Assembly: GCF_963576615.1 (NCBI RefSeq)
Contig: NC_088711.1
Span: 7,182,369-7,246,368 of the forward strand
DNA from: Watersipora subatra
Lineage: Eukaryota > Bryozoa > Gymnolaemata > Cheilostomatida > Watersiporidae
Direction: 5' to 3'
Length of the DNA: 64,000 bases
Shown: piece by piece, positions 18,758-61,659 of the stretch
Layout of the letters: each line of letters opens with the position of its first letter
Position numbering within the stretch: the first letter of the stretch is position 1
Translations under genes and position numbers: made by a program
Notes under the pieces: generated by a model
Seen by the model: only the letters and a program-made list of their open reading frames with translations
Databases searched by the model: none
Told to the model about the DNA's origin: nothing

Positions 18758-21700
18758 GTAAGATAATCATTCATCACGATTAGGCAGAATTGAGCGAAGA
18801 CGCAAGTTTTAAACATCAAGCAAAGTTTTCGAAGGAATTGTGCAAAAAAGGTCATATCAAATTGTTGCCTGCTTGATTGTTGTATCAGTTCGTTCTCTGG
18901 TCACTACATATTTCTGAAACCTTTTATATATATTATAGGATATGCAACATCCTCGTCTATTTTTATATGTCAAGGTCATAGTTTTTCAACATTTATTTAA
19001 GAAAAAACTACTCAGAGCGATACTGCTTTTAGCATACCACCTTATATATTTATCATTTTTAAGTAAAGTATGCATTTTTTCAACAGAATTCGTAAATGAG
19101 ATATCTTACCTGCTGCTAGTGACAGCAGCACTTTTATCTAAACTTTGATAGCTTGACCAAGGGAAAAACCCTGAGTAGCTCCCCTTAAGGCTCTATCAAG
19201 TTTATCTTGAAAAATACGCAAGAGCATACATGGCAGCGATTTGTGTAAAATGTAAATAAGATTTTATAAAAGATAGAGAAACATGCTTGCTGTTAGTGTT
19301 TATAACAAGACTACCTTTCTTGCTTCTCCAGCTGAATATCATACTCTCTACTAGCTTAATGTTAAAATTTCTTTCAGCCTAATGAAAAATATATAATATA
19401 CATTGATATTTTTGTGCGGAGAAGTCACCGTTTGTATGCCATGTACCAATCCAGGCAGCAAAAGTCACCCGTGTTACGCCGTTTTCCTATTTTGGCTTGA
19501 ACTGTATAGTAGAGGCGCAAGAAAAATGGCATTAGATTCTCCTCTGATAAATTTAAAATTGTTTTCACCATGCACTTAGCTCTCTAAATCACTGCTTGCA
19601 GTTATTAATAACACCAGTATGTTGCTGCTAATGCTGTCAGTATGCCCACACTCTAAAATGTAACTTACCTTTTAAAAGGGTGGTGGTAGGTTAGACATTT
19701 AATATCATAGGTACTGGGAAACTAACGATTTACTTCTATAAACCCCTTTGAGTTTAACACAACTCTGATTTTGCCATCACATCAATTTGGTAGCATAAAG
19801 TAATTATCATAGAATGGATGAATGAAAGGCACCTATATCAGTGTTATAGCATCGTGTATTTCTCTCTTTATTTCTCTCTCTCACACCTCAGTGACTACTC
19901 GCAGTAAAAACACACTTGAAACAGTTATCAACTTGCATGGCACGAGATTTGGATAAACTAGCTCAGCGGGTTCGCCCTTTAAATAAAAATATAACCTTTC
20001 CTAAGGGACTACTCTTCGTAGAGGGGCTTTAGTGGCATCCAATACATTGACCTAGTGATCACTCTAAGTTGTGCACTGCTAGCCATCGTATCGGTAAAAG
20101 TGGTTTGTTAATTACACATCTATTGTAATTACTTGCAGGCTGGCTTGGGAAATTTCCATTGATAAGTATATTTACCATTAGCTGACTCTAAGTATAATAT
20201 ATTCAATCAATACGTTGAACAATCGCCGTCGACACTATGCAAGCAGATTTGTTTATATTCATGAATAATGCTTTATAAAGCTTTTTTTTGAAAGTATATC
20301 AAGCGTAGACGCAGTTAAAATAATTATGAGTACAATATATTGCGGAAATCTATTTGTGTATCTACGGAGCTGTCGAGAATATTCTATTTACAGACAGCTT
20401 CAAAGGCCCGTAAGGGTACTGTGGAAAAGTTTCGCACTAGTAATATTAGCTGTACAAATATGAATTTGAATATATTTGTATAGTAATTTCAGAAGGAGTG
20501 TTTGCTGTCTATGAACAATCAGGTTGAAGTCTTCACTAGACAACCATATAGGCTCAGGTATACAATCAATAAATTAATAGAGTTAACCATATAGACTCAG
20601 GTGTACAATTAGTATAATAATAGAGGTAATCATACAGACTCCGGTGTACAATCAGTACAATAATAGAGTTAACCATATAGACTCAGGTATACAATCAATA
20701 CATTAATAGAGTTAACCATATAGACTCAGGTGTACAATCAGTATAATAATAGAGTTAACTATATAGACTCAGGTATACAATCAATACATTAATAGAGTTA
20801 ACCATATAGACTCAGGTGTACAATCAGTATAATAATAGAGTTAACCCTATAGACTTAGGTGTACAATCAGTATAATAATATAGTTAACCCTATAGACTCA
20901 GGTGTACAATCACTACAATAGTAGAGTTAACCATATAGACTCAGGTGTACAATCAGTACAATAGTAGAGTTAACCATATAGACTCAGGTGTACAATCAGT
21001 ACATTAGTAGAGTTAACCATATAGACTCAGGTGTACAATTAGTACATTAGTAGAGTTAACCATATAGACTCAGGTGTACAATCAGTATAATAATAGAGTT
21101 AACCCTATAGACTTAGGTGTACAATCAGTACATTAGTAGAGTTAACCATATAGACTCAGGTGTACAATCACTACAATAGTAGAGTTAACCATATAGACTC
21201 AGGTGTACAATCAGTACATCAGTAGAGTTAACCATATAGACTCAGGTGTACAATCAGTACATTAGTAGAGTTAACCATATAGACTCAGGTGTACAATTAG
21301 TATAATAATAGTGGTAATCATACAGACTCAGGTGTACAATCAGTACAATAATAGAGTTAACCATATAGACTCAGGTATACAATCAATACATTAATAGAGT
21401 TAACCATATAGACTCAGGTGTACAATCAGTATAATAATAGAGTTAACTATATAGACTCAGGTATACAATCAATACATTAATAGAGTTAACCATATAGACT
21501 CAGGTGTACAATCAGTATAATAATAGAGTTAACCCTATAGACTCAGGTGTACAATCAGTACATTAGTAGAGTTAACCATATAGACTCAGGTGTACAATCA
21601 GTACAATAATAGAGTTAACCATATAGACTCAGGTATACAATCAATACATTAATAGAGTTAACCATATAGACTCAGGTGTACAATCAGTATAATAATAGAG

Positions 21701-24700
21701 TTAACTATATAGACTCAGGTATACAATCAATACATTAATAGAGTTAACCATATAGACTCAGGTGTACAATCAGTATAATAATAGAGTTAACCCTATAGAC
21801 TCAGGTGTACAATCAGTACAATAGTAGAGTTAACTATATAGACTCAGGTGTACAATCAATACATTAGTAGAGTTAACCATATAGACTCAGGTGTACAATC
21901 AGTACATTAGTAGAGTTAACCATATAGACTAAGGTGTACAGTTGATATGTGAATATAGCTGAAACTCATAGCATATTACTTCTTCTAAGAGATACGTATT
22001 AGCAAAAAAAACTTTTCTTGACTTTTGCTAGCAAATTGCTAGAAGTTGTAAGTTATCCTAGCATTTACTATAGCATCATTAATGACTCATGTAGCTTCCA
22101 ATGCAATGCAGTTGGAGTTTTGCCATGTTTTTGTGGTAGCACAACTCTCACTCAAAAACTGCATTAGCTCTGTAAAATGAAGGAGTTGATTTTAACCTTT
22201 TTAACTGACAACATGACAACACTAACAATATTACTCTCACCTTGACAACAATGTGACAGTGATACGTGATTACTATCAGCAACAGTACACGAACGAGTCC
22301 TCTTACAGAAATACGTGCAGGCCTTAGATTTCTACTGATCCAATCACATCCGTTCAAACTAGCCTCCGGTGTTATCCTTTGTACTCTCTTTATATAAAAA
22401 ATTAAATTAGCTATAGGGCCTATCCTATGAACCTTTGTAAAAATGCAATATAAAAAACTATGATTCTTGTCTTTATTAATAGTAGAGCATTTACACATTA
22501 TTTAAAATATATGTCTTTTTTTGCATCATTTTACTCAGTGATTTAAGGTTAAGCCCAAACAGAACATTATACTACATCTCAATGCTGCAGATGCTGCTCA
22601 CTATATGCGAACACCAAACTAAACATGCAGGTATGGATAATTCACACCTGCATGTTCATCTTGGTGTTCGATATCGTCTGTGGTGCTGCTAAGATGGCCG
22701 GTAGCACTAGATAACGCAGTCATTTGGCCTCCTATGTTTGGCTGTCTGCAGATGGTCCTCAGTGACACCAAATTAAAAAAAATTTTTTGTCATTCTATAC
22801 CAATTACATGTATATGTTTATTTTGCTGAAACATCCATCCAAATTGAGCTCATAAAAGCTAGGCTCTGTTTATTGTGCGATATCAGGGCAGCATCACAGG
22901 TCAGCACTCAATTTCTGAAAAAATTATATACAGAAATTCAAAAGTATGCAAACAATGAAAGTTCCTTATACCCAGCTCTGTGCAATACTAGTATTAGTAT
23001 CCCCATATCCTAAACATCCTAGCTCTATGCACTACTAGTGTTAGTATCCCCATATCCTAAACATCCTAGCTCATACGTTTGCAATTCATTAGCTACGAGG
23101 AATGAGAAGCCTTAAAACTGACTTCTATTCACTAGCTCAAAACCAGATTGACAAATATGATTTGCTATTGTTATACAGTTGTATGCTTTGACAGTGTCTC
23201 CACAATTAGATTCAAGTTTAGATGCTCATGTTTATGATTGCAATTGTCTTCTCTGATTAGGAAAAACCTTAACAATAAGGCCGGTTGCAGACTCCGCTAA
23301 CACTGACCAGTACAGGTCACTGTTAGCGGAGTCAAGCTAACACTGACCAGTACAGGTCACTGTTAGCGGAGTCAATCTAAACGTCACTTTCCACAGAGGT
23401 CAAACTTTAGTTGAATTTATAATCACCAACTTTATGTTTAGGATTATCTTTCCTCTGACTTAGTTGGCAAGCTGCCAAGCTTAGTTTACCCATGATAAGG
23501 CGTAGTGACAGTCTAGTATCAGATAGAAAAACTCTCACGTTATTTTCTCATTCAGCACACGGGTCATTCCACTCTAGTAACTAGTAAGTACTATTCTTCA
23601 AACATTTAAAAAGTTAAGCGGCTACTGTTGGCACAGGTGATAGCATGCTGGTCATTCTCATAAACATTCCCAGAATACTGCTCAATGATCCGGTTCGTTG
23701 TGGGCTCTTACTGCCAGTGCTTGCTGCCAGAGCCTCTTGCGCATAGCGAGCAGCCAACAGGTGTCACCAGTCATAGGCTAAGTGTTTATTTAAATGCTGA
23801 TAGCCGGAGAGGCAGTTAGTTGTGTGACAGTTTGGTAGGTGAGCGGAGCTTGAAAATATCTTCTTGTCATCTTGGTTATCAGGAGGGAAAGGACCTAGAG
23901 ATGGTTAACAGCGACGATGTAGAAGAAGGCTCGGTGGAAGCGCAGGAACGAGGCAACTGGACTGGCAAATGTGACTTTTTTATGTCATGTTTGTCATACG
24001 CTGTCGGGCTTGGCAACCTCTGGCGGTTTCCGTATCTGTGCTATAAAAATGGAGGAGGTAAGACAACCACCTCTGCCCACTTTTTTAATCTGTAGCTTGT
24101 TGTATTGTAACACAATAAGATATTATGAAGAATGCTCAGCGTATAGTTATTGATACGAGAGTTTTGCTGATAGCTGGGGATTTGGAAACTATAACAAAAC
24201 TTATCCATTTTTTATAGGAAGTCATTACAGCTGATTTATTGAAGCTCTGCTAGGCACCTAAATAGCTGCCTGATGCCTCCCCTCACCAGCTGCATGTTAT
24301 AACGTTATAACGATGCCTTGAAATCAATATAAAACCTACCTAAGATTACCGGTAGATGATCACTTGAACATGTTAGATATCTTAGCACGTCTCAGCATAT
24401 TAGCATACATAAACTTCAATAAAAGTGTTTACTCTCTGATCTCTTTTTATCAAATTGTTAGAGACGGTAGCGATTGGTACAGCAAGCAAGAGCTGAACAA
24501 ATTCTCTATATTTGAAACATATCTTCTCTTGCTCGCTGTCTGTTCATCTATCACTCTGTCCAGCGGTACACTCTGTCCTACAGTACACTCTGTCCGACAG
24601 TACACCCTGTCCTACAGTACACCCTATCCGACAGTACACTCTGTCCTACAGTACACTCTGTCCTACAGTACACTCTGTGTTACAGTAGTCTATCCTACAG

Positions 24701-27700
24701 TACACTCTGTCCGACAGTATACTCTGTCCTACAGTACACTCTGTCCTACAGTACACTCTGTCCGACAGCACACCCTGTCCTACATAACACTCTGTCCTAC
24801 AGTATACTCTGTCCTACAGTACACTCTGTCCTACAGTACACTCTGTCCTACAGTACACTCTGTTCTACCGTATCTTCTGTCCTACAGTACACTCTGTCCT
24901 ACAGTACATGTACACTGTTTTCTAGGAGCGTTCCTCATTCCTTACTGCTTGATGATGGTCTTTGCTGGCATGCCTCTATTTTTCATGGAGTTGTCATTCG
25001 GTCAGTTTGCAGCTACTGGGGTCATCAACATTTGGTCCATCAACCCTCTCTTCAAAGGTAAGTACCCGGATACACTTGTATTCACTGCGTAACCAGTGAC
25101 ATACCCCTTCACTTTCCTTTGCTCCTTTCCCTAACTAAGGGATGCCAATAAGATTTTACAGCCAATATTTTAAATTTGCAGCCAATCGCTTACAACAAGA
25201 CTAATCAATAATCAATTATTTATAAAATTTCTACTGATATTAACAACCTCTCTTGAGTAGGCAACTGTTTAGTGAAAGTAAGGAATTGTAGCACAGCCTT
25301 TCCGCTTGTATCAGACAACTATTTGCAATAGTTTAGCTATTTATTTTTCTTTCAAAATGGTTTACGGTTGTTGAGTTCACCAAAAAACCTTTACATTGTC
25401 CAGTCATTGTTTGAATTTCAATATCATCCATTACGTATTTCTGTATGCATATGTAATGGGACGTAGACATACAGTCCTGTCTTCCCAGGAAACTAGTCAG
25501 CGGGCTATAAAAAACAATTGTATATTATGGCAGCTGTTAACCTGCTCCTGACATCAAAGCTCTTTGAAAAGAATATAAACTCAAGTGTCACCATATTCCA
25601 TCTCTACATTTCTATTTCAGTTTTTGCGGCTACTGATTTGTCCATAAGCAGTAGATTGAATTACTTCACTCATTTGGGCTGCAGGCTGTTTTATCATTGC
25701 CGCTGCCTTTGAAGTAAAAGTTTATAAAAAAGTATAAGACTTCGATAGCCCTTGATCATAGATGATCGTTCCTTAAGTTGTCTCTCATGCTAAATACGCT
25801 CCCAATGCATAGAAATCTCAGGCTACATTGAAAACTTGTAGAACAGGCATCTAAAATTTCTCTGTTTACAAGCTGTTTACAAACATTGAATGTTAAGAGG
25901 TCATTATAGCTTGTGATCCTACTCGTAATGCTTTTAGGAATTGGCTATGCCATGTTCACCGTCTCATTCATGGTTGGAATTTACTATACCATGGTAATCG
26001 CGTGGGCGTTCTACTTCACCTTTGCCTCATTCGCCAAAGATGTGCCTTGGAAAACTTGTGACAACGAGTGGAACACAATCGGTAGGTGAATGACCCTGAG
26101 CCGCAGACACAGCTGAAGTAGAGAGCTATGGCATACATCCTGTCTATGCTTACCCAGTTAAATCATACAGCGTGTAATGATGCCGAAACCATGGCCAAAA
26201 AAGGCAGCGAAGGCCAAACAAGAGCACTAATACATAGCATTCAGTGTTAAATTTGCAGAAACATCCTTAGGTAACCGGTACTGTAATTAGATTGCCAGAC
26301 TAATGAGCTAGTTAGCCTGTGAGTGTTAGAGCGCGTAGGCGGGTGGGGGTTATGCATAAAGCTGTCGCTTATTCTATATTTAGCCTCAAGAATTTACTTG
26401 ACTGCGAATAGGGGCGGGCTGGTAGGTCTGTTTGGAACCCAGTGAAATTATGTATCAAGCCAAATTCATCAAGGATATTTCACATTATGCAAACTCATTC
26501 ACTCTGCGACTGCTTGTCTTCGATACAGCAAAAAGGCACCTTAAAATACATGTAGTTGACATTGATAATAAATGCATTATGATCCAGTTATATAGCATAC
26601 GCGTATTTGTTAATAGCACCTTTGTACATAGTTGTATAAGAATAACAAAAGAGTAACAGGGATATCATTCTTGTGCTCAGCGCTGATTGAGTTTGCACTG
26701 GCTCAACACTTGTGCGTTACGATACGCAAGACCTTTGCCAAGTTTCTTTTGTAACGTAGCTTAGTGTAGGAGCAGCATTATGCATATTGGAAAACATCTT
26801 ATACTCTTTGACTGTTAGCGGTGAATGGAATTTTGGGTGAAAACAGCATAAATCAGACCTACATAACGAAAGCTGTTTAACTAGATACAAGGAGAAGCAT
26901 GAATGAAATATTTGCCTTTGATTTTCTGAATTTGAATCCCCTAGACATCTGTAAACACGCTGTATTCTATGGCAGTTCTAGGTTTGACTATTTTATTTCT
27001 TGTGTTTTCATGAGAGGCTTGGCCTTCGGTCTAGGTGCTCACTAATGTGATCCGGTAGTGAAATGTTTACATATTTACACTCCATTGGTTAATAGCATGC
27101 AGTCAGCCCGAGCAGTTTCGCAACTGTTCATCATACAATGGCACGTGGTTCAACTCAACCTGCTGGACTGCGCTCAAGGATGGCGAAGATGTCTACCAGG
27201 AATATACTCTCAAAGCCAATGCTACAGGGAGACGTTCTGCCAGCTATGAATATTTCCAGTAAGTTCGCTACAGTACAAGTTGAGGAACCTTTTTACAAGA
27301 GCTCTCATTGGTCGATTTAACAAAGTCAACTTAATTATGCCTCACGAAAGAGTTTTGCGATGTTAGCCTTTTCCATGATATTGTAAATGAATACAAACAA
27401 GGAAAGTGCGCACCAAGTCTCTAGTTAATTGTGTTTCATGGGTGCAGCTGGCAGCTATCCAAATCTAATTCAATTCAGTAAGTCACGGAAAAGTGTTTTC
27501 CGCTAGCAAGCTTGATCAGTAGTGATGGCTTGGAAGTAGTGCAATGGATATTACTAATATCATAGTAGTGTACTATTTATATATATAGTTGGACCACACC
27601 TAGTATCATAGTGAAAACAGTGACTTGAAGTATAAGAGCTCACCATGATCAGTATGGTAGCAAGAGATGGTGGGCATGTCAAAGATTTGGTTATGTGATG

Positions 27701-30700
27701 GTGTACCGACGACTGCAACAAAGTTTATAACCAAGTGCAGTTTACAGTGTGGCTGAAGAATAATCAACACGCCAGTTTTAGTGTTAAGGGATCATTGCAG
27801 AGTTCCACATCTTTTAACATTTAAATAGCTTCAGCTTTCATTCATTTTTTTCTTTCCAATGGATAAGAGTATGCCAAGTAGCGCGCGTGATTTGCTTCTG
27901 AACAGAGACTTGTGATGTTACGTATAAACACACTTCTATGACGCATATCAGTCTTACAGCATTTGGACAGGCTGACTGGTCTTCATGTAACCCTAAATAA
28001 ACTCCTGATGTAACATTGTCTTGTGTATAGTTAAGCCTGGTTCCCATATACGCCGCAAGCCCCGGCGACGGCACCGCAGGGTTATCAGCAGTGAAATGTG
28101 AAACTAAGCGCCGAGTACCGCCGGTAGTTGCCGGCGGTCAACGCAAGAGTTCAGCGCTGTTCAACTTCCGCGAAGAGCCGCAGGCGAAGCCTACTCAAAA
28201 TGTACTGTACACGTGAAGGTCAGCACTTTCGGGACAGCAGCGTTATGGGAACATTAGCTGCCAAGCCTAACCTCGCAAGTGTTGTGCTGCGCAAGATTAC
28301 CGCCGGGGTCTCGCATTCGATGTGGGAATCAGGCTTTAGCGTGCTATCTTGACTAGCAGAGTTAGTGAACACTGCTAGTCAGAACTATATATCACACTAT
28401 ATCAGCGTAGCAGGCCTTATCAATAATAAACATTCTCATGAAATCTGAGCAAATGAATTTTAACATTGTCATAGGCAGCTATATAAAGCATAAAATAGTA
28501 TGAATGATAAAAGTTGGTTAACTGAATGGAAGAATATAAGGTTTAACAAAGACCTCCACAAAGTTGTCACGATACGTACATTACAAGAAATGATATCTTA
28601 GATCTATTAGATCTATGAAACAATAAACGTTAACGACAGACTAGTTGCACCATACCAGGTGACTCTAGCCATAGTCTACCAGGATGTTGGCTTTTAAAAT
28701 TAAACAGAAATACATCCAGTCTGCTTTTAAGATTTGTAATATTCCTTGTATTCCTTGAGAATAGGTGGGTGTGCAACAGCTCCGCATATTGTATGGATGC
28801 CTGACTGTAGTTAACGGTCAGGCAAGGCGAAGGAGTGTTAAACTGCTAGCTCAAATGAGATGACTTTTTTTCATTGCTGTTCTAAAGTCGGCAGTTCTAG
28901 TGAACCAGCTGCGAAAGCTGACATTTACCTTAACTTTTGCCCTTCTTCTAATCCTCTGTAATGCCCTATTGCACCCTTTACACCGCATTATTCTTATACC
29001 GAATGTAGCAAATAGGTCGATATGTCCTGGACTTCACTTAGTCATTATCACAGCCCTTGACACTTTGCACAACATAAACAGATGTTGACAATATTAAAAA
29101 TATTTTATGGGACTGGCAAAATGGGGAACATGTTGACTAATTCTTCTCTCATTTGTGACTTTAATCCCGCTTATCGGTTGTTTGTATGATTCTCAGTGTC
29201 CAAAGGTTCATTTAACAGCAGGAAGTTATTTGTAGTCGCTAAAACATTCAGCGTGATAGTCACTTAATTATTACTGAATATTCACAGGAAGTGAGAGCAA
29301 CTCAGTTCTGACACATACAAACTTGTTTCGGTTATGCTTTTCCTGCTGGGGACTCTCCATTTATTTTATGTTTTTGTCTGAAATATAATGACCATATTTG
29401 TTTAGGCATTTTCAGGTCACTATAAATCTTGCTCGTTCTTGTTTAATGCAGCCGTCGTGTTTTACAGCAATCGTGTCCTGGCTATCTCGGACAACATAGA
29501 TGAGATGGGGTACCCTCAGTGGGAGCACGTCTTATGCCTCCTCCTCTCCTGGTCTATTGTTTTTCTCTGCCTCATCAAGGGAATCAAATCATCCGGAAAG
29601 GTAGCCACTACTTGTGCTTCTGGTCTGTCTTGCCATAGAGTTGGTACTGTTAATATTTATGGAGTTATGCTTCTTGTCAATTTATTATAGTTTTACACTT
29701 ATTAATAGTATGTTTCTCTGCTGCTAGCAGTGATTATAGAATAAGGATACACAGTAAACTAAGATGCTGTGAGTTCCTCGGCTCACAAACCTATGTGAAC
29801 ATTTAATTTCAGAAAACATAATTTAAATGTAGCAAGCTAAAAGAATTTTCTCTAGTAGATAAGTAGTAATCGTGCAGGTATAATGGACGCCATTTGAGAA
29901 GAATGATTTCTTACAAGCACTGTAATACTAATACTAATACTAATTCTGTAATACTAACTTCTTTTTTGCCTTACAGAGTCAAAAGAAAACTGTTTACGAC
30001 ATCAAATTATCAAAGCTCAATGTTTTATGTTTAATTTACATTGATGTACTCATCAAGCTAGCTTCTGTTTATATGATTATGCTGGGAGCAAAACCAGCAT
30101 AATCATATGACCAGCAAGCCCAGTGTAGAAAGTATACAAGAGAGAACAACTTCATCAGCTTTATTAACTCCATAAAAATGAATATATATGGATTTATCTA
30201 ACACACAGAGCTAGGAGTGGTTACTCGACTTTTGACTGTTTGCATTTTACAGTTGAGTGATTGACTATTGCCTTTAGTTATGTATTAACTTCCGTTTATT
30301 ATGTGTACCTTATGCCCGAGGCATAATGCATACTTGATTAACACATAAGTATCTGAAATGCAGGCCATTGAAATCACCCCGATTGAACTTTACAAAAAAT
30401 ATTTTCGCATTTGTTTAGACTCATCGGGCTATTAAAAGAATACTTTAAATAACCTACTTCTCTGATTATTTTTACGGTTAGTTAATAGATTGATTATTAT
30501 TTGCTAATGTTGTTAAACCAACCATTTTTGAACTAAGCAGCTCTATGTAACCTGTATAGGTGCGCTGGTTAAAGGGGTGTATGTGCAAGAACTTCCCAAG
30601 TGCTTCACTCAATTGCTTTTAGTGTTGTTTCGCTATACTAAATTTTTGAGCTAACTTACTCATCATCATCACCAAGACGCTAGCCGATGGGAGACAGCTA

Positions 30701-33700
30701 TCAAATGAAGGCGCTGGCGCTTTCAGCTTTTTGGCAAGATTTCTGTCACCTAGCATACTTTGTTGTACAATCGGTCATTACCTCCAGCCACCAAACCGTT
30801 TTCAGTCATTCTATATCTTGTGATTTTCCAGCAACATGTTACTATTTGGTTATATAGACTCAGATGTACAGTCAGTACATTAATAGAGTTAACCATATAA
30901 ACCCAGGTGTACAATTAGTACATTAATAGAGTTAACCATATAAACCCTGGTGTACAATTAGTACATTACTAGAGTTAATCATATAGACTTTGTTGTACAG
31001 TCAGTACATTAATAGAGTTAACAACGTAAACTCAGGTGTACAATCAGTACATTTATAGAATTAACCATACGGACTCAGGCACACAATCAGTGCAATAATA
31101 GAGATACCGATATAAACTCGGATGCACAATTAGCGCTAGCTGTTTATACTTCATACTACAATTCTCTTGCAGGCTGTCTACTTCACGGCCTTGTTCCCTT
31201 ACGTGGTGCTCATAATTCTCCTGGGCAAAGCTGCCACGCTTGATGGAGCGATCAATGGCATCAAGTTTTATGTAACTCCCAAATGGGAGCGGCTCGGCAC
31301 CGCTGCCGTAAGTTGTACTCTTGCTCTCAATGCTCTGAGCAGCTTGCTAATGGATGTCTTCACTCCTTTAATAGTCCTAATTTCGGATCAGTCAGCGATA
31401 CACTGGCGCCTGCTGAACTTTGCCTAGAGGTTATTGGAGCCATGATAAAATAAAATGTGGGTCATTTTTAAGACCTCCCTACTTGTATAGTAAAAGTTTA
31501 GATCGGTGGTAAAAAATTTAACAAGTGTTGGCAATAAATGTCTACATTTACAACTCAAAGCCATCAAACATGCTCTGTTTTTATTGAAATCTCTTATGTA
31601 CATGCACGGTGAACTTACTTGCTTTCATAGGTCATGTTATAGGTCATTTTATAGGTCATTTTATAGGCCGTTTTTAAGTTTTCTTGTTCCTAGAGAATGA
31701 GCTGGCTTCAAAACGCTGACAGAGAGTATTTGACCAGCCAGCTTCCTTTCAAACATACCCATTCACAAATAAATGTATTCACGTTGAGTCTCCTATGTAA
31801 CTGTAGCATATATTCTTACACAGGTTTGGGGAGATGCTGCTGTACAAATATTCTTCTCTCTCTCACCTTGTTGGGGAGGACTCATCACTCTGGCCTCATA
31901 CAATAAATTCGATAACAATGCTCTGCGGTAAGTTGTTCCTCCTTAGGGTTTGACAACCGCAAGCATTATCCGCTACGCCCCTTCTTCTCCAATGGAACTG
32001 CACCACACTTGCTCTTAAGTATGTTTAGAAGTGTCAGGGCGTAATACTCGCAATAGCAGTTGATGACCTCATCTTGGGATAATTTAAGCTGTGGAAGTCG
32101 TGAGTTCATGCCGCGTCTGGAGTCTACTTTTCTAATCGTAAATTGTAATGGGCATGCTCCACTTTTCAACTACAACTGTAATGTTGGGTGACATTTTTAC
32201 AGCTCTGAAACAAAGTTTACAAAGTGACATAATTTTTAGCAACTAGATTAATAAGGATAGAAAAAGGAGTTGTCACCCCATGTAGCACCCTAATCCACAC
32301 CTCCTGCTTGCCAACTTCGTTTGCTAAGTCACTACAACTTACATGGTCATCTTTTGGAGGTGACTGGAAAGATGTCATTGTCCTTGACCTTTTGACCTGC
32401 TGACCCGTTAGCGCACTCTTCAAACAAATTGTTTGCTATTAACGCTGCTGGTGAAAGTTGTTTTGATAATAAGACTTTTCTGTTGGCAGTATAGACTTCC
32501 AGGTTGTTTCAAATTTTACTGCTGTATTCAAATGCTTCACATGAAATCTTTGTACTATATTTTCTCTCTTAGAGTTTTAAATAAATTAATAAGTATTTTA
32601 ATTCTTACAATTTGCCTTTTCACTTGCAGCTCTTGTCAGTTTTGTTTTGTGACAGATTGTTCACATTCTTGATAGCTTGGTGATTGGTCACTTGTTTAAA
32701 AAATCAAAACTTTAATAAAATAAGGCAATGGAGTGGAAAATCGCAAATAACTTGCAAAAACAACTAAAGTTTACACCAAAATTGTTGTTGGTTTCTCCAA
32801 GGACTATTTAAAACGTTGTAACTCCAAGTTGATTTGTTTGAGCCAGCCCGTGAAGACTAATGGGGAAAGACAACTCTGTATTATTTTAAATGGTGTCTGA
32901 AAACATCTTTGAGATCTAGTAGCAGTATTTCATCAGAGTTGAATATTAGCTATACTAGTAAATGAAATAAAACTAAAGTATAATAACAATATAATTTGTT
33001 GCAAGTGCCATACTAGTCAGCTTGTACTAAGCGTCAGACAAGATTGAATATTTTGTAAATAAGCTCCATCCTCCACGCAATTGACAAAAACACTTTACTA
33101 TGCAAATCTTTAAATGGGAACGTTTTGTGAGTTTACATCAAAGTTTATTTATGCAGAGACTCTGTGGTGGTAACGCTGTCTAACTGCGGCACCTCCTTCT
33201 TCGCTGGCTTCGTAATCTTTGCTATTATTGGTTTCATGGCTGAGCAGCTAAACATGGACATAGAAGACGCAGCGGTTGGAGGTAAGACCAATATTAATTC
33301 TCATATTTTCTGTATTTTCTGTCAGATTTCAGCTTTGAAAAGTCTTTAAAAGCTGCCATGAGGTAAAAATTAACAGTAGGACAAAGCAAGGGATACATAG
33401 GTTTATAGTGAGGTAATGTTGGAAGAGCTGCTACAGTTGTATCTAATCATATCATGATTGTTGCAGGTGCTGGCCTGGCTTTCGTTGCGTATCCTGAAGT
33501 TGTCGCCCAACTTCCAATTTCTCCTCTTTGGTCTATTCTCTTTTTTCTCATGCTCATCACACTCGGCTTAGGAACTCAGGTAATTTTAAAGTACTCACGC
33601 TACACGTAAAGAAAAGTCTGAATGTGAATATGATTTATATAGACTTCGTCAAAGACCTGTTTAGATTAAGTGGCTTTTGCACGAATAACTTCACACCTCT

Positions 33701-36700
33701 TTTACCAATCACAGACCGCTCCTAGCAATTCTCTCCACAAATATTGGCCACCATATATAAATACATATGCATGTCTAAATGTAGATATAGACTGTACAGT
33801 CGTTTGTTTGTCTCTTATTATAGCAACAATCACCATCATACTAGATTTGAACTTTTGACTTTCAAATCCCTAGTCTACTAACAAACGCACCTAACCACAA
33901 GGCTAAGCCGTTCTTACCATTCCCATCACTATTACCATAAACTGTATATCCTTTTCACGATTGTACAAGCTAAATGTGAACTTTTTATTATTAATTAAGA
34001 TTACCTTGTGCATTTGTTGTTTTTTTGAAATATTTTTCTAACCAAATTTTTTTACCATTACCCATTTTTTCAATTTGTAATTTTCAAATGTGCTGTTTCT
34101 ATTTCAAAAGTGCCATTAAACTCATATTTCTGGTTTTGGTAAATCTGTAAAAACTAAATGCTTTTTACGAACAAACCAACTGTATTATCTGGAATAAAAA
34201 TTGTCCCTAAATTTTCTCTGCATTCAATCAAACAAAAAAAGTCTGATATCTCATTTTTACGTTTGCACCAGAATTGAGAGGTACCTGTATTGTCCATCAA
34301 AACTTTGAATACAACGAGCTTCTGCTGCAACAGTAACCTTTTTGATACACACACACTTCCATTTACTCATTGTTTATTTTTTCTCTTAATTTGTTTGAAC
34401 TTTTATTCAAAAACACTTTTCTAATGTTATGAAGTTTGAAAGTTTTAATGGTAGACGTTGTATATGTTAAATAAAAAATGTTTTCTGCACAAATACCTTT
34501 TTATTACCCGAGCAACGCCGGGCATTCATTAGCATCATTAGCAGATATAAACAATAAGTATATTTGGGATTTGTCTCCCTTGCCTGCTCTGAGAGGCACT
34601 GGTGAGGCTTCGATAGCCAAAACAGTGCTGTCTGTAGCATGAGTATATATAAATATATATATACAAATAAAATATATATAGAAATATATATAAATGAAGT
34701 ATATATAAAATATACTATAATTTAAACATACAGAGGGAAAATTTGGACAATTTCTAACCAACCTAATCTATCTTTAAAAATATATATAAAAAAATACATA
34801 TATATATTTAATGTGTATCTCACTTTGTTCTAGATGACGACAGTCAACACTGTGCATACAACTATCCTAGATTTGTTCTCTGACAAGTTCAGGAAAGGCC
34901 ACAGACCAAAGATAGTTCTTGCCTGCGTCTGTTTTATAAGCTTCCTACTCGGATTAACTATGACTTGCAACGTGAGTAGATACGGCGTTCTCCTCACTGA
35001 CTCAACACTTTCACAACTATTGAACTGGATTTAAAAATTATCTTGCGAAACTGTTGGTAGATTTTATCAGAAAGTATCGATATTTTTCTATCATTTACGA
35101 TTGTTTTTGATTTTGAGATGATCTGACTGCCAGAATGTTTTAAGATTAAAATTGACAAAATTTGATCACGGTTAAAATACTCAGAAGAAAAAGGCATGCT
35201 CAGGCTTCCACAAAAATGAAGTCAGTAGTCGTGCCAACTGTTCATAAGTAATAAACATACGGTCTCATCGGTAGAGGGTATTTATATGTTTACACAACAT
35301 ACAGAGGAAAAAGTCGGACAATTTCTAATCAACCTAACATATCTTTAAATTATTTGAAACATCAATAGAATGTATCTGATGCTATATTTGTGAAGTTTTA
35401 TTTTAACAATTCAGAGCAAATACAAAATAAGATATATGTCAATAGAGACGCGTGACTGAATGCTATAGCCGATGTCATAACGAGAAGAACAAACAGGAAA
35501 CGCGACTACTGACATAATTTTAGAGAAGTTTGGGCTTCTTCTTCTTCTGAGGGTTTTAACTGTAATAAAGTTTTGTTAATTTAATCATGAAACATCCTGG
35601 CAGCCAGATCACCTCAAACATCAAAAACAATCGAAAATAATAAAAACATAAAAACATATCAATCCTTTCTGAAAAAATAAACTAAAGTTTTGTGCAAGTT
35701 CATCTTTGAAGATAAGCTTCACCTGTATTAGGATTTCCATTTTAATCATTCATGCGGACAAGAGCGGGTGGTACACTACCATACCCTCTACTTTTTGGTA
35801 GAGTAGAATGTGAAACCAGCCTATTTCTAATAGTTATCTCCCTCCTGAGGGTTGAATCTGTAGTCTTGATAATGCTCTCAATAAATCTGTAACTGTTTCC
35901 TTAGACTTAACGATGATGTATAAATAATCTGGTGCCTTCGCTCTCTATGCCAGTTTGTAAGCTGATCTCTAGTAGTTTGGAATTTTAATCGGATAGCTAA
36001 GATAAGCTGTAGTGAGTTCTGCTGGGCGCAGAAGGCAGCATCGTGATCTACCCAGGGTCAGCCTGCTTCTCTCACCTAAATAAACTTTCACATGCTTCTA
36101 AACAACCCATCATTTAATTATCTTGAATAATGTCCGCCTAAACCCATCAGATGCCATCAGTTCTCTCTGTGGATGATGTAAATTACGTATTTTGACAACT
36201 GTTTAAATTTTCATGGCCTGCATAACTTCCCATGGGGACCAAAAGAGTTTTTTGTCATTGACACCAGTGTTGCAAAAGTTAATTTGTTCATTATGACTTG
36301 TTTGATCTTGGAATTCCTTGCTGGCCATAACCTCGGTTTTACAGCGTTGGCAGCGTTAAACTCTGTTTACTGACCTCCTGTCGCAATGGGACCACTCGTT
36401 ACCGTATTTCAATAGCAAAGAGTTTTGCAAATAGCTGTCAGTATGCAATGCTGACCTACATTCCATTTGTATTGACAGTTTTTTAAGAATCCGGGTCAGT
36501 TTTGTGCCAATTTATTTTGGGAATGGAAAATGCCTTTGGATACTTGCAGCTAATAATAGAAACTCTCTGAAAGGACTCTAATGGCTTATTTATTGCTTGA
36601 AATTTCAGCTCTCTCACCCAGTCAGCCTTTTCTGTCTCATAGACCTTATCCTCAGCAACATATTTATAGTGATATATAATCATGTAGGCTACCGTATATA

Positions 36701-37842
36701 CACGTATATATATTATATTTACATATATATACTATATATACGTATAAAATAGCTGAAAGATACAGTAAGTGCAACTATTTTCAATAACTACTATATACAG
36801 TCAAACTCGGATAACTCGAACACTTGGTTAACTCGAACGGATTTGTTTGGTCAGTTCCCACGCAATAATAAATTGCTTTAAATAACTCGACCTTAACATC
36901 ATTAACTTGAACAATTTTTTGCCCAACGGCTACCGAGACAGTTGTTAATCACTTTAGAACATCACTTTATTCAAAGCCATAGAGATAAATATCAGTTTTT
37001 AGTAGCTCTCAGGCGGGGTTATTACCATCATCAGCAAAATATTTTCGTTAGCGACTTTTCTGAAGGTTTGCAAAAATCAAATGTTACCAAACATCCACTT
37101 TGCGATGGCCCTTTGCAAACAAGGAAAAGCGAGGTAACTTTCGGATAAACTCAGAGTAAAATCGGCAAAATTGATCTTGGTTAAAACGCTCAGGAAAAAA
37201 AGATGCCTTTTTTCTTAGTGTTTTAACCGCAATCATGTTTGGCCAATTTTAACATGAGGACATCCTGGCAGTCACATCACCTAAAACAACAAACAAATCT
37301 CAAGTGATAGAAAAATATTTATATTTTTTGATAAAAAGTTTTAAAAATTTGCATGAGAGGCCCTTTAACTTGCAACAAGCAATCTATGCTTTTGATTTAT
37401 ATATAGTTTGTATATGTACATGTATCTACTGATAAATACATGCACTTGTGACAGTGCTCTGATAACTTAAACGCTCTGATAACTCCCGTGAAGTTTGAGT
37501 TATCTGAGTTTGACTGTATATACGTAGATATGTATACGCATATATATATTATATATATAAATTATATATATATTATATATACACGTATATATGTTTCGCG
37601 CTTGCTGCTCGTCAGGCTGTGATGAGTCACAGCCTGACGAGCAGCAAGTGTGAAACGTATATAAGTATATACGTTGTATATATACGTATATATATACGTA
37701 TATATATATACATATATATGTTGTATATATATACATACATGCATATATATTTATATACGTATATATATATGTATATATATACGTTGTATATATATATGTA
37801 TATATACGTTGTATATATATATATGTATATATATACGTTGCA

Positions 37843-37883
<41 letters not shown>

Positions 37884-40800
37884 TGTCTATATCTTTAATG
37901 AAAAGATGCTTTTTGCTAGATAATTGGTTGTTGGTGTGTTGTAGGGTGGCATGTACATGCTAGATAATTGGTTGTTGATGTGTAGTAGGGTGGCATGTAC
38001 ACGCTAGATAATTGGTTGTTGATGTGTTGTAGGGTGGCATGTACATGCTAGATAATTGGTTGTTGATGTGTTGTAGGGTGGCATGTACATGCTAGATAAT
38101 TGGTTGTTGATGTGTTGTAGGGTGGCATGTACATGCTAGATAATTGGTTGTTGATGTGTTGTAGGGTGGCATGTACATGCTAGATAATTGGTTGTTGTTG
38201 TGTTGTAGGGTGGCATGTACACGCTAGATAATTGGTTGTTGATGTGTTGTAGGGTGGCATGTACACGTTAGATAATTGGTTGTTGATGTGTTGTAGGGTG
38301 GCATGTACATGCTAGATAATTGGTTGTTGATGTGTTGTAGGGTGGCATGTACACGTTAGATAATTGGTTGTTGATGTGTTGTAGGGTGGCATGTACATGC
38401 TAGATAATTGGTTGTTGTTGTGTTGTAGGGTGGCATGTACATGCTAGATAATTGGTTGTTGATGTGTTGTAGGGTGGCATGTACACGCTAGATAATTGGT
38501 TGTTGATGTGTTGTAGGGTGGCATGTACATGCTAGATAATTGGTTGTTGATGTGTTGTAGGGTGGCATGTACATGCTAGATAATTGGTTGTTGTTGTGTT
38601 GTAGGGTGGCATGTACATGCTAGATAATTGGTTGTTGATGTGTTGTAGGGTGGCATGTACATGCTAGATAATTGGTTGTTGTTGTGTTGTAGGGTGGCAT
38701 GTACACGCTAGATAATTGGTTGTTGATGTGTTGTAGGGTGGCATGTACACGTTAGATAATTGGTTGTTGATGTGTTGTAGGGTGGCATGTACATGCTAGA
38801 TAATTGGTTGTTGATGTGTTGTAGGGTGGCATGTACACGCTAGATAATTGGTTGTTGATGTGTTGTAGGGTGGCATGTACATGCTAGATAATTGGTTGTT
38901 GATGTGTTGTAGGGTGGCATGTACATGCTAGATAATTGGTTGTTGTTGTGTTGTAGGGTGGCATGTACATGCTAGATAATTGGTTGTTGATGTGTTGTAG
39001 GGTGGCATGTACATGCTAGATAATTGGTTGTTGATGTGTTGTAGGGTGGCATGTACACGCTAGATAATTGGTTGTTGATGTGTTGTAGGGTGGCATGTAC
39101 ACGTTAGATAATTGGTTGTTGATGTGTTGTAGGGTAGCATGTACATGCTAGATAATTGGTTGTTGTTGTGTTGTAGGGTGGCATGTACATGCTAGATAAT
39201 TGGTTGTTGATGTGTTGTAGGGTAGCATGTACATGCTAGATAATTGGTTGTTGATGTGTTGTAGGGTGGCATGTACATGCTAGATAATTGGTTGTTGTTG
39301 TGTTGTAGGGTGGCATGTACATGCTAGATAATTGGTTGTTGTTGTGTTGTAGGGTGGCATGTACATGCTAGATAATTGGTTGTTGTTGTGTTGTAGGGTG
39401 GCATGTACGTGCTAGATAATTGTTGTTGATGTGTTGTAGGGTGGCATGTACATGCTAGATAATTGGTTGTTGGTGTGTTGTAGGGTGGCATGTACATGCT
39501 GCAGCTTATGGATACGTACGCAGCCACATACTCCGTCCTTGTTATTGGCCTCTGCGAGTGTGTCGCCATCGCCTGGATTTATGGTTCGTGTTTCGATACT
39601 CGTTGAAAGATATTCAAAATTTTGTTTAATTTACTAAATGAATGCAATCATACAACTGTGCTTTGAATGCCCATGCTTTGTAAAATTGAGTTTATATTAG
39701 GCAATTATTAGGCACGTGTAAGCACTTGTAAGCACTTGTCAAGCCTAAACTCAAATTAAAACCAAATCAACTAGAACCTCATTAATTCCATTAGCTGTGC
39801 TCATCATGATTGCCAGAGATCTGTTTGCGCTAAGTTTGACTGTCAATTTACCAATAGGAAATTATGGTTGTTCTCTAGTGATCACACAGTTTTCGTGTAC
39901 GTACATGTCAAGTACATGTCAGTACATGTCAGTACATGTCAAGACCTGCTTATTGTTTATCTTTACAACAGAACAAATATGCCAAGCATTAATTTTGTAT
40001 GATGAATTCTATCAACCAGCATATTTGTTGCTATTATGATTGATATCCGACAAACTACTGATGTAAACAACAAAATTGCTTGTCCATATACATGTATGTC
40101 GCATTTGTCTCCAACTTGACTGCAACAGTTACGCATTCAAGTCAAGTACTAGTTTTAACGCAAACCTACCTTTGCTTTTACATGTAAAAGAACACAGTCT
40201 ATACAATATCAACAGAAGTATGGCATCTTGTAGTAGATTACTATGTCTGTGAGATGATATAAGATTTTCCCAACATGCTGATCTAGTCCTGGCTGTGCGA
40301 GCAGCAACTCATTGAAAAATATAATAATAACAGTGTCCTTGAATAGTGCTAGAGAACTGAACATAAACTAGCAAAGAGCAGGAATGTGTCTTCAGAAAAT
40401 CATACAGCCCAGCTTCTAGCAATCCTTTTGTTTAATGGGTGTTATCACCATAAAGTAGTAGTAGCAGCAGTCAAATATAGAGTTGTTTGAAATAAAATCA
40501 TCAAGAGACCCTGACTAAGGCAAACTTATGAAATTAATATAGGTGAACATGGTTCTGACTTACAGCAACTGAACATTGAAAGCTCAAAAGAATACAGGCT
40601 GCTGTCTGTATTCCATATCCAAGAATCCATCTCTGATTGCTGCTTTGAATCGTCCGCAGTTATTTAATTATTCAGCAGATTTAATGGAATCTCATAACTT
40701 AATTGACGAGAGATGACAACTCCTGAGTGACAGTTTCCTGTTTGTTCTGCTAAAATAACACACAGAATCAAAGTATTTGTATAGCAATTTAGATGTGGTG

Positions 40801-43800
40801 AAAGTTGAGAATTTAATGAGCATTAAAATGGTAATCTGAGTGTTTCTAAATTTGAAAAAATTGACTTTTAATTGTAGGCTGGCAGCGATTTGGAGATGAC
40901 ATCAAGTTGATGCTCGGACGGAGTCCTGCTTTATGGTGGAGAGTGATGTGGCAGGGAGTTACTCCACTTCTCATGTTTGTAAGCTGAGCATGTTTATACA
41001 TTATATAGGTTTCCATATTACAAACACATAACATATTGCAACATTGAGTTGTCTTCTCAGAGTTGAACAACTCTACTCTTTGCACTATGAAAATCATTTG
41101 ATACTAAGATTTTTAAAGTGCAAATTTTAATGTTTTTCTCCCATTTTTACTTGGTCTGACTCACTCTGTTTTATGGTCATACATTGATGAGACACTTTCA
41201 CCCTGCCTCTGATGCTTGCGCTATTTTAATTTAACTCTCCTGACAAACATTCTTTGCACGAAAAACTAAAAATAAATAACATTTTTGTAAGCGGTAAGCA
41301 ATGATGTGTTCAATTCATTCTTCCATGGATAGCTGAGCTAAAATTTAATATAGAATTTCAAAGGCTAATGAGATGTATAATAGCATTGAAGTGTTTCATT
41401 GTTTTGTATCTTTATACAAACCATATCGAGCAAACCTATAAAATATGTTAAAAACCACTATTGACTAATAGCAGAGTACAGCACAAACTGTTGCATAAAA
41501 ATTTATTCAGCACAATTTTAAATTACCACAAAAAATTTTACCTCCAGTTAAGTTTACTATTTTATAAAATAGTGAGCAGGAAATAGAAAATTGACCTATA
41601 TCCCAATTTTTACAAATGCTTATCCCTTCGCTCTAGATTAGATCTAATTATTCAGCTTGTTAACCTGAACCCAGTGCATGTGCCAATACAAAGTATGACT
41701 TTACTTTGGCCATAGTTCTAGAAAACTAGATTTAATGTCATTTGTCGGATCCCTAGATTCAGCGGATTATAGTTTGGCAATTTTCCTTGCTAGAGATCAA
41801 TCACTAACGGAAAGTTCAATTTTACTCAACATGTAGAATATCAGTCATTAGTCATAAAGCTTTTTTTTTTATGGACAGTTGTGCTTTGCTTCAAGATAAA
41901 CCTTATACAACAATTTAGACATTTTTTTATAAACTCTAAACTTTTTGCTTTCACATTAAGACCTGCTAAGAGCGGTGGTGAAAATGTGTGACACGCGTCT
42001 ATTAATTATTGCTCAACTGACTTGCACAATCCTCTTAAAGAGTCTCATAGATTTTATATAATTGCTTGAGATTCTTCACTGAAAAAGTTTGACTTCATCA
42101 GACTTTGCCTTTTGTAGTTCATCCTAATCTTCACATTTGTTGACTTTGAGCCAACTAAATACGATGGAAAAGTTTTGAAGACTTGGGCTGATGTGCTTGG
42201 CTGGTGTTTATCTCTCTTCTGCATGTCACCCATTCTTGTTGTCGCTGTCTACACATTCGTTATAACAAAGAGAGCTAATCCTGAAGCAAGCATTCGTCAG
42301 GTTAGTGGCATTCAATAGTTATTACGTCTAGAACTATGGGTTGTAAGACTGTTATATATATTATATACATATATAATATATATTATATATTATATGCATG
42401 TATGTAATACTCATGCTACAGACAGTACTGTTTCAGCTATTTAAGCCTTATCGGTGCATCTCAGAGCTGGCAAGGGAAATAACTCTCATTGCCAATGAAG
42501 GTTGACTTTCTGCCATGAAACAACTACGCTGCCTCAAAAAAGCCAATGAGCGACACAAGAGTACTAATTACTTTATTAGCAATAGTTTCATATTGCAAAA
42601 CCATAATCATCAGATAAAATTGCTAACACTAAAACATCGCGTAATTTTTACATTGTATTTTATTATTGAGCACTTTTACACAAGAGACTGCAAACACTGC
42701 CTCTATTATATATATTTATTATATATGTTATATATATGTAATATATACATTTTATATGTAATATATATACACATGTATATGTCTATTATAGATATATTAT
42801 ATATGTAACATATATGATATATATAATCATGTATATGTTTATACATATAAAAAAGTACATCGTAAAACAGTTGTATATCTACTAAAAAGCGGGCAGTCAG
42901 GCAAACAGGCGAACTTACAAGCGCCCTCTGGCAGCAAGAGAAACTCTGACAACATCAAAACAGTTTGAGAGTTGATATGAGGGCATTGACTGTTCTGAAT
43001 CATTACAAAGCCTTCCAGCAGGGAGTCAGTGTTTTATGGATTTATTTCTTTAAATGGATTAGGGAGATCGTATTAGGATAGCTTCAAAAGTTTTACTACT
43101 TCAATTTCTCTCCCAAGATATTCTACATAAGATGGTTTCCTGAATGTACCTGTGTACCAGGGGACTCACTGGGTTGGCCAATGTACCTGTGTACCAGGGG
43201 ACTCACTGGGTTGGCCAATGTACCTGTGTACCAGGGGACTCACTGGGTTGGCCAACCAAGCTAGTTATTAGTCATCACCTGTTTCAAATAATGTATTTTT
43301 GCATTCGGAAGAAAATGCTAATGATGTGGTTTAGTAGCTTCCATGCTGGAGGTACTTTGTATAAACAGAGGGTGTCTATTACTTGCTTTTAAGCAAATGT
43401 TCTTTTAGCGTGAACAGAGTGGGCCAAATAGAGTTCTCACGCTGGAGGCTGGTAGTTTGAGTCTTGGTTGCTCCTAGTTTAGGCCAAAAGTCTTTTCTGA
43501 TTCTCAAAAGAAGTTGAGGATCTCTGCGATCAGAGACTTGATCAAGTAAATTAGAAATCTGTAGCGCCTTGACGACCTCATTACGCAAAACTTCACCGTA
43601 CAATAAACAACTAAAAAAACTCACTTTACATGAAATTTGAGAGTGCTAATCTGCCCTCAAAGCTGGTTCACACTGTGTCCCCATTTGTTAGGCTGTCCTC
43701 TGTACGTAAACTGATGACATTGCCAAGGTAATGTGGATATGTCAGGAAACACTTGCAGCTGTCAAGATTTATTGATATTTCACCGAGCATTCACAGTAGT

Positions 43801-54919: not shown

Positions 54920-55218
54920 TAATTTCTATGACAACAAAAAGTTAGCCTAAATGCTAGTGATATGGTTGTATATCGAATAGACACAGTACTTTCAAGTATT
55001 TGACTCATCACAGATCATGTATGTCCGGAAGGTTCTATAGCTAGTGGGTGCTGTAGGAGTTAATAGACTCAGGGAGCCTCATATAAGTGTACCATAGTGC
55101 AAGTGACTCGTCACACACCAGGTGCGCGCGTAGGCTTTGAATAATACTAAAACTGGTTTGTTTACAAACAAATTTGTATGCTTGTATGTAAATTTTGTAA
55201 CTTTGTATGCAAATGTTT

Positions 55219-56157
55219 GCTCTACCCAATGTGTGTTGTGCCACCTATGCAAGGGCTCTGACCAATGTGTGTTGTGACACCTATGCAAGTGCTCTGACCA
55301 ATGTGTGTTGTGACACCTATGCAAGTGCTCTACCCAATGTGTGTTGTGACACCTATGCAAGTGCTCTACCCAATGTGTGTTGTGACACCTATGCAAGTGC
55401 TCTGACCAATGTGTGTTGTGACACCTATGCAAGTGCTCTACCCAATGTGTGTTGTGACACCTATGCAAGTGCTCTACCCAATGTGTGTTGTGACACCTAT
55501 GCAAGTGCTCTACCCAATGTGTGTTGTGACACCTATGCAAGGGCTCTGACCAATGTGTGTTGTGACACCTATGCAAGGGCTCTACCCAATGTGTGTTGTG
55601 ACACCTATGCAAGTGCTCTGACCAATGTGTGTTGTGACACCTATGCAAGTACTCTACCCAATGTGTGTTGTGACACCTATGCAAGTGCTCTGACCAATGT
55701 GTGTTGTGACACCTATGCAAGTACTCTACCCAATGTGTGTTGTGACACCTATGCAAGTGCTCTACCCAATGTGTGTTGTGACACCTATGCAAGTGCTCTA
55801 CCCAATGTGTGTTGTGACACCTATGCAAGGGCTCTGACCAATGTGTGTTGTGACACCTATGCAAGGGCTCTACCCAATGTGTGTTGTGACACCTATGCAA
55901 GTGCTCTACCCAATGTGTGTTGTGACACCTATGCAAGTGCTTTACCCAGTGTGTGTTGTGACACCTATGCAAGTGCTCTGTCCAATGTGTGTTGTGACAC
56001 CTATGCAAGTGCTCTGTCCAATATGTGTTGTGACACCTACGTAAGTACATTGACCAATGTGTGTTGTGACACTTATGCAAGAACTCTACCCAATGTGTGT
56101 TGTGACACCTATGCAAAGTGCTCTACCCAATGGGTGCTGTATAACCTTTGCAAGTGT
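55219..56157. repeat. 36-bp minisatellite, ~26 copies
   Basis: Units built on ATGCAAGTGCTCTACCCAAT and GTGTGTTGTGACACCT. Because 36 is divisible by 3 and the unit has no stop in two frames, long open frames arise on both strands (plus 55207-56427, minus 56116-55079), reading CDTYASALPNVC or HRCHNTHWVEHL over and over. No splice or start context supports coding. Confidence 0.93.
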
Positions 56158-56194
56158 TCTGACCAAAGCATGTTAAATCTCGACACAATCTCGA

Positions 56195-61656: not shown

Positions 61657-61659
61657 GAC

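Follow-up and report, generated by a model that had tools for sequence, protein, structure and literature searches.

A minisatellite built from a splice junction covers the acceptor of exon 11 in an SLC6 transporter gene of the bryozoan Watersipora subatra. It is found at positions 37914-39500 of the window, by which we mean the whole stretch of 64,000 nucleotides analysed here (contig NC_088711.1 of assembly GCF_963576615.1, positions 7,182,369 to 7,246,368, forward strand). Tandem repeats over intron/exon boundaries are known as "mirages" from amphioxus, where they were described in Adh3 and in the globin genes BflGb6 and BflGb9 (PMC3087553). Judged from its structure, the bryozoan array is a long mirage, in a phylum that is new for such arrays as far as the literature was searched. 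We think it probable that the array arose through a duplication of the boundary followed by expansion of the inner copies, that splicing selects the exon-attached copy, that misfires are degraded and that the whole is a tolerated by-product.

The gene holding the array is located at 23901-42300 on the plus strand. Its 13 exons were set by hand, with GT-AG introns, and when joined they give 575 codons with no stop. The best solved relative of the joined protein is glycine transporter 2 (9wbr_A; phmmer E-value 1.1e-168, residues 8-550). This similarity across nearly the whole protein, together with the open frame, places the protein in the SNF family. At the level of exons, Pfam PF00209 matches exon 10 (E 0.014), exon 11 (E 5.9e-9) and exon 13 (E 0.00018), and exon 11 is the only one to pass the family cut-off when taken singly. 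From the frame and the similarity, the gene is judged to be an intact, glycine-transporter-like member of SLC6. The idea that the gene is broken, which would make its splicing irrelevant, was rejected in view of the open frame through all 13 exons.

Exon 10 (34834-34971, plus strand) ends in phase 0 with TGCAAC/gtgagt, a donor scoring 6.9. Exon 11 (39484-39583, plus strand) covers the TM10 region, i.e., PF00209 positions 408-442, and its donor is ATG/gttcgt. The intron that separates them, intron 10 (34972-39483), is with its 4512 bp the longest of the 12 introns in the gene, the others being 185-2209 bp long. The alignment with glycine transporter 2 runs without a gap through the joint of exons 10 and 11, which supports 34971-39484 as the productive junction.

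Tandem Repeats Finder (TRF) describes the minisatellite with a period of 44, 36.1 copies, 96% matches and a score of 2964. Cut unit by unit, this head-to-tail array on the plus strand consists of 36 near-identical units and a trailing TGCT; 35 of the units are 44 bp long and one, unit 35 (39410-39452), is 43 bp long, having lost one G. Each unit crosses the true intron/exon boundary, as it is made up of 27 intron bases (26 in the short unit) followed by 17 exon bases. A TAG acceptor occurs at the same place in all 36 units, as TTGTAG in 35 of them and as TAGTAG in unit 2, and each unit also carries a candidate branch point. The real acceptor, AG 39482-39483, lies in the last unit (39453-39500) together with the 17 bases that open exon 11; as far as the sequence tells, this terminal copy is the authentic boundary, and the other copies carry its splice signals. 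Upstream of it are 35 decoy acceptors (37943-39439), the first AG ending at 37944, the following ones each 44 bp further to 39396, and the final one at 39439. The 17 exon-derived bases, GGTGGCATGTACATGCT, are complete in 22 of the 35 decoys, and the other 13 retain 15 or 16 of them. Outside the array this 17-mer is absent from both strands of the window. In 20 dinucleotide shuffles of intron 10 and exon 11, no TRF array with a period of at least 20 and a score of at least 30 was found.

Only seven of the 44 unit positions are variable; they are scattered along the unit and are too few for a selection test. At position 21, a G is found in units 1 and 36 only, while the inner 34 units have an A (25) or a T (9). 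The first unit (37914-37957) retains in this way the variant of the real junction. The pattern, based on this single position, is that of homogenised inner units from which the edge units are excluded, and in minisatellites the edge copies usually keep an old variant as the inner copies turn over. The initial annotation had seen about 35 decoy acceptors in front of a coding exon, a unit built from a splice junction with the last unit as the true one, and a variant common to the edge units that is mostly lacking inside. All this holds when the array is cut by unit, and the number of decoys is exactly 35.

The real acceptor is hardly distinguishable from the decoys by sequence alone. An acceptor position weight matrix was trained on the 77 other acceptors in SLC6 genes of this genome. 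With this matrix, the real exon 11 acceptor reaches 7.66 bits and outranks 32 of the 77. Ten of the 35 decoys score higher (7.91 or 8.56), one is equal and 23 are lower by 0.01 bit; the weakest is the decoy of unit 2, at 3.1 bits, 4.6 below the real site. Without rounding, the real score is equalled or surpassed by 11 of the 35 decoys, and 34 of the 35 are within 0.02 bit of it or above, so the earlier claim that the spliceosome faces near-identical acceptors is upheld by the genome-trained model. None of the 143 AGs of intron 10 that lie outside the array reaches the score of the real acceptor. When scores are rounded to 0.1 bit, 34 AGs in intron 10 equal or exceed the real site, against 0 to 8 in each of the other 11 introns. 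A TAAT is located 20-21 nt before the AG end in all 36 units and is a possible branch point, although this is a weak guess; the fuller branch motif yUnAy, which 41 of 78 acceptors have, is missing from -45 to -14 of the exon 11 acceptor.

An early stop is predicted after each of the 35 decoys. In 33 of them it comes 60 nt into the decoy exon. One decoy, the one with the 43-bp unit coming next, meets its stop at 30 nt, and the penultimate decoy passes through exon 11 without a stop and meets one at 174 nt, in exon 12. The initial annotation had an inner copy reading 11 residues and then a TAG in the next unit, which describes most decoys and fails for the exceptions at 30 and 174 nt. Under the rules of nonsense-mediated decay, transcripts with such early stops should be degraded, and we infer this fate for the decoy-spliced transcripts. 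An intact gene means that splicing has to reach the last copy with sufficient frequency.

The exon part of the unit can be traced to the exon. Both the SNF profile and glycine transporter 2 align with the coding sequence of exon 11, and in the two paralogs where this acceptor could be called, the residues there are GGTYLFDILD and GGIYLLNLVD, the intron ends being unlike. The exon 11 sequence is thus ancestral, which indicates that the exon gave rise to the array rather than the array to the exon. The acceptor at the same position in two paralogs also makes intron 10 older than the array, and from this comparison a gain of intron 10 by the tandem duplication appears to be rejected. The unit is flanked by TGCT on both sides, in ttttTGCTagataatt before unit 1 and in acaTGCTgcag in exon 11 after the last unit. 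Such a pair fits the footprint expected from a tandem duplication at short homology, but four bases can match by chance. The suggestion of one boundary duplication followed by internal expansion agrees with this 4-bp microhomology as well as with the edge variant. Searching with the unit against the 784 Mb assembly (783,720,542 bases, 239 contigs) gave 18 matches, all at C4:7220303-7221839, i.e., in this array; the search skips very common words, and absence elsewhere is to be read at that sensitivity. A dispersed or mobile repeat as the source of the unit was rejected on the same result, with the same limit.

We suggest that the array evolved in four steps. First, as the footprints indicate, a slip of replication or repair between a TGCT tetramer that begins 31 bases upstream of the exon and a second one at exon base 14 would have duplicated 44 bp across the exon 11 acceptor. 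Second, ordinary minisatellite exchange would have raised the inner copies until the array had 36, the edges keeping the old variant, as read from the unit variants. Third, since the duplicated segment straddles the joint of intron and exon, its last copy would still read directly into the full exon, and the gene would stay intact as long as this copy is chosen. Fourth, a transcript made with any of the decoys carries an early stop in its frame and would be degraded. Use of the last copy is what the intact reading frame implies, and exon definition is the most likely reason for the choice, the last copy presumably being picked through the exon 11 donor 100 nt downstream and signals within exon 11. 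Easy exon definition is opposed by the weakness of that donor (5.5 bits, the 17th lowest among 85 in a leave-one-out scoring) and by the nearest decoys, which would yield exons of only 144, 187 and 231 nt. Taken together, the array is most likely a tolerated, neutral to slightly costly by-product of a minisatellite-rich genome and not a designed switch.

The frequency of such arrays was surveyed in a single gene family, using 24 regions around SLC6 genes and 26 kb of the window, in total 242 kb. Splice boundaries were called at conserved positions and gave 172 (84 acceptors and 88 donors), of which 22 are in the window; 163 were found exactly at the predicted place and nine were moved by a multiple of three, and one region (L031) gave none. 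Tandem arrays make up 16.3% of the 242 kb. They cross three of the 172 boundaries, the window acceptor and two donors, or two of 150 without the window. Intron positions 300 nt from the boundary lie within an array in 15 of 84 cases on the acceptor side and in 10 of 87 on the donor side; at 100 nt, the figures are 4 of 84 and 7 of 87. The crossing of boundaries by arrays is several-fold under-represented, as selection would do, yet it is recurrent and tolerated.

Both crossed donors are donor-side mirages on the minus strand. In exon 9 of L023 (C1:78702500-78712400, oriented 5085-5409) the array is 54 bp x 6, and its unit contains 17-18 bases of the exon end followed by gtatgt (gtacgt once), giving six donors of 4.9-5.1. 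The second is at exon 5 of L036 (C3:33696401-33704500, oriented 4518-4646), an array of two 43-bp units that have a 21-bp sub-repeat. Here the exon end AAG/gtaagt is present in four copies, through the 43-bp and 21-bp units, and the four donors are equal at 12.0 bits. These donor-side arrays fit exon definition, since in them as well the frame is kept by the exon-attached copy. At exon 8 of L033 an array starts 1 bp after the donor, without crossing it.

A further array was found by eye in the paralog L025 (C1:43962500-43972400, minus strand, oriented 6344-6855 and 7728). It is outside the three of 172, as the count was restricted to splice positions shared with the window gene and its donor is shifted and not conserved. 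The SLC6 matches of this paralog run unbroken through the positions of the window-gene introns at 322 and 363. Instead, an intron seems to start with TATAG/gtatcacc after NNIIKDTLVVTI and to end with ttgcag/GTAAC. The 5' end of the intron is an array of 46 bp x 9 with 31 exon-derived bases per unit, in which two inner donors outscore the outer donor (6.3 vs 3.9). This is a candidate for an intron moved or gained via a mirage array.

With a period of at least 8, a score of at least 80 and pure A/T excluded, tandem arrays make up 17% of the window. A 19-bp array at 58975-61657 is about 2.7 kb long, and a 36-bp array at 55218-56160 lies inside an open frame of 408 codons. In intron 1, a 17-bp array at 24552-24908 (CACTCTGTCCTACAGTA, ~21 copies) stops 17 bp short of exon 2 and looks acceptor-like. 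It was rejected as a second decoy array; none of its 20 AGs scores above 5.2, compared to 7.1 at the real site, and its consensus does not contain the exon start. A 43-bp array whose end is 42 bp upstream of exon 6 was considered as derived from a splice site and rejected, a like unit being present also at 20542-21940. Two separate arrays with a similar 43-bp unit, at 20542-21940 and 30852-31130, ~9 kb apart, indicate that some minisatellites are dispersed.

From the survey it can be speculated that Watersipora subatra has a mirage-rich genome, in which arrays repeatedly seize donors and acceptors, a strong exon-side rule copes with them by picking the exon-attached copy, leakage into decoys sets the output by allele length, and arrays occasionally move or create introns, with the L025 paralog as the candidate. 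Taken as a whole, we regard this picture as tentative and rather unlikely.

A regulatory role of the array in its own gene, with the decoys drawing an appreciable part of the splicing into dead-end transcripts and the transporter output being set by array length through nonsense-mediated decay, appears unlikely. In favour of such a poison array are the 34 of 35 decoys that match the real acceptor to 0.02 bit or better it, the early stop after every decoy, the weak exon 11 donor, and the 34 AGs that set intron 10 apart from the other introns. However, no sign of upkeep is seen in the seven variable positions of 44, which are spread over the unit (again, too few for a selection test), and the unit is found at a single locus at the sensitivity of the search. 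The under-representation of boundary-crossing arrays in the SLC6 sample is what a cost would predict, and the amphioxus mirages are reported with regular splicing (PMC3087553). Array length may conceivably tune the transporter, as the initial annotation proposed.

It is very improbable that some inner units are tiny exons or stepping stones of stepwise splicing. Each unit does have an acceptor followed by GT dinucleotides. Seven GT sites in the array, present in a single or a few units and including one that belongs to the last unit, reach 5.4-6.2, close to the donors of exons 10 and 11 (6.9 and 6.0 with the same matrix). A duplicated intron/exon boundary is also known to have made a new intron in the potato RdRp gene (PMC4974935). 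The GT sites that are common to at least nine units, however, reach at most 2.2 bits, the donor median being 8.6. An intron between neighbouring units would also be shorter than 44 nt.

Tandem repeats commonly cause assembly errors, but that the array, or its length, is such an artefact is hardly credible given the mixed variants among the units and the quality of the PacBio HiFi data. The tzWatSuba1.1 assembly of Watersipora subatra (783.70 Mb, 240 scaffolds and a mitochondrial contig) was made from 30.93 Gb in 5.33 million HiFi reads and has a QV of 63; dividing these figures gives ~5.8 kb per read, which can span the 1.6 kb array (PMC12902671). Also given in this genome report are the RNA-seq run ERR11641139 and the alternate haplotype GCA_963576605.1 (PMC12902671).

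The locus can be seen as a natural competition experiment, in which 36 near-equal 3' splice sites stand at a spacing of 44 nt before one short exon, their strength being almost constant. Junction counts would tell whether position relative to the exon or the order of transcription is the rule of splice-site choice. Laboratory constructs with duplicated 3' splice sites have been used for studies of this choice; there too like acceptors compete before one exon, but they are built by hand and have few copies, compared to the natural 36. Minisatellites are also known from vertebrate SLC6 genes, i.e., the VNTRs in intron 2 of the serotonin transporter and in the 3' UTR of the dopamine transporter. 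These are not built from a splice junction and are of independent origin.

In the potato RdRp gene, an intron was gained by a tandem duplication across an intron/exon boundary (PMC4974935). The likeness to the bryozoan array is that a duplication of the boundary carried a putative branch site, a pyrimidine tract and an acceptor into the copy. The potato case is a tandem duplication with the new intron in use (PMC4974935). The bryozoan array has 36 copies, with no sign of new introns.

The closest known system is that of the amphioxus mirages. The initial annotation implied that the bryozoan array is singular, and this is not borne out given the amphioxus arrays (PMC3087553) and the donor-side cases in SLC6 genes of the same genome. 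In both animals, tandem units lie across an exon/intron boundary, in amphioxus at 3' or 5' splice sites, and the inner units are homogenised with the edges excluded from this; the amphioxus report also describes that copy number varies between alleles. The bryozoan array is longer, with 36 copies against 6 and 3 in two BflGb6 haplotypes, and its unit of 44 bp compares to 150-160 bp in BflGb6 and 10-72 bp in Adh3 (PMC3087553). In amphioxus, the authors take the Adh3 data and their RT-PCR to suggest no interference with regular splicing, and they proposed that new introns can originate from mirages (PMC3087553). The bryozoan array is known from the sequence of one haplotype. Searching the open-licence literature, we found no report of mirages outside cephalochordates. 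The array described here suggests that mirages are not confined to that group, and the bryozoan genome offers more of them, donors included.
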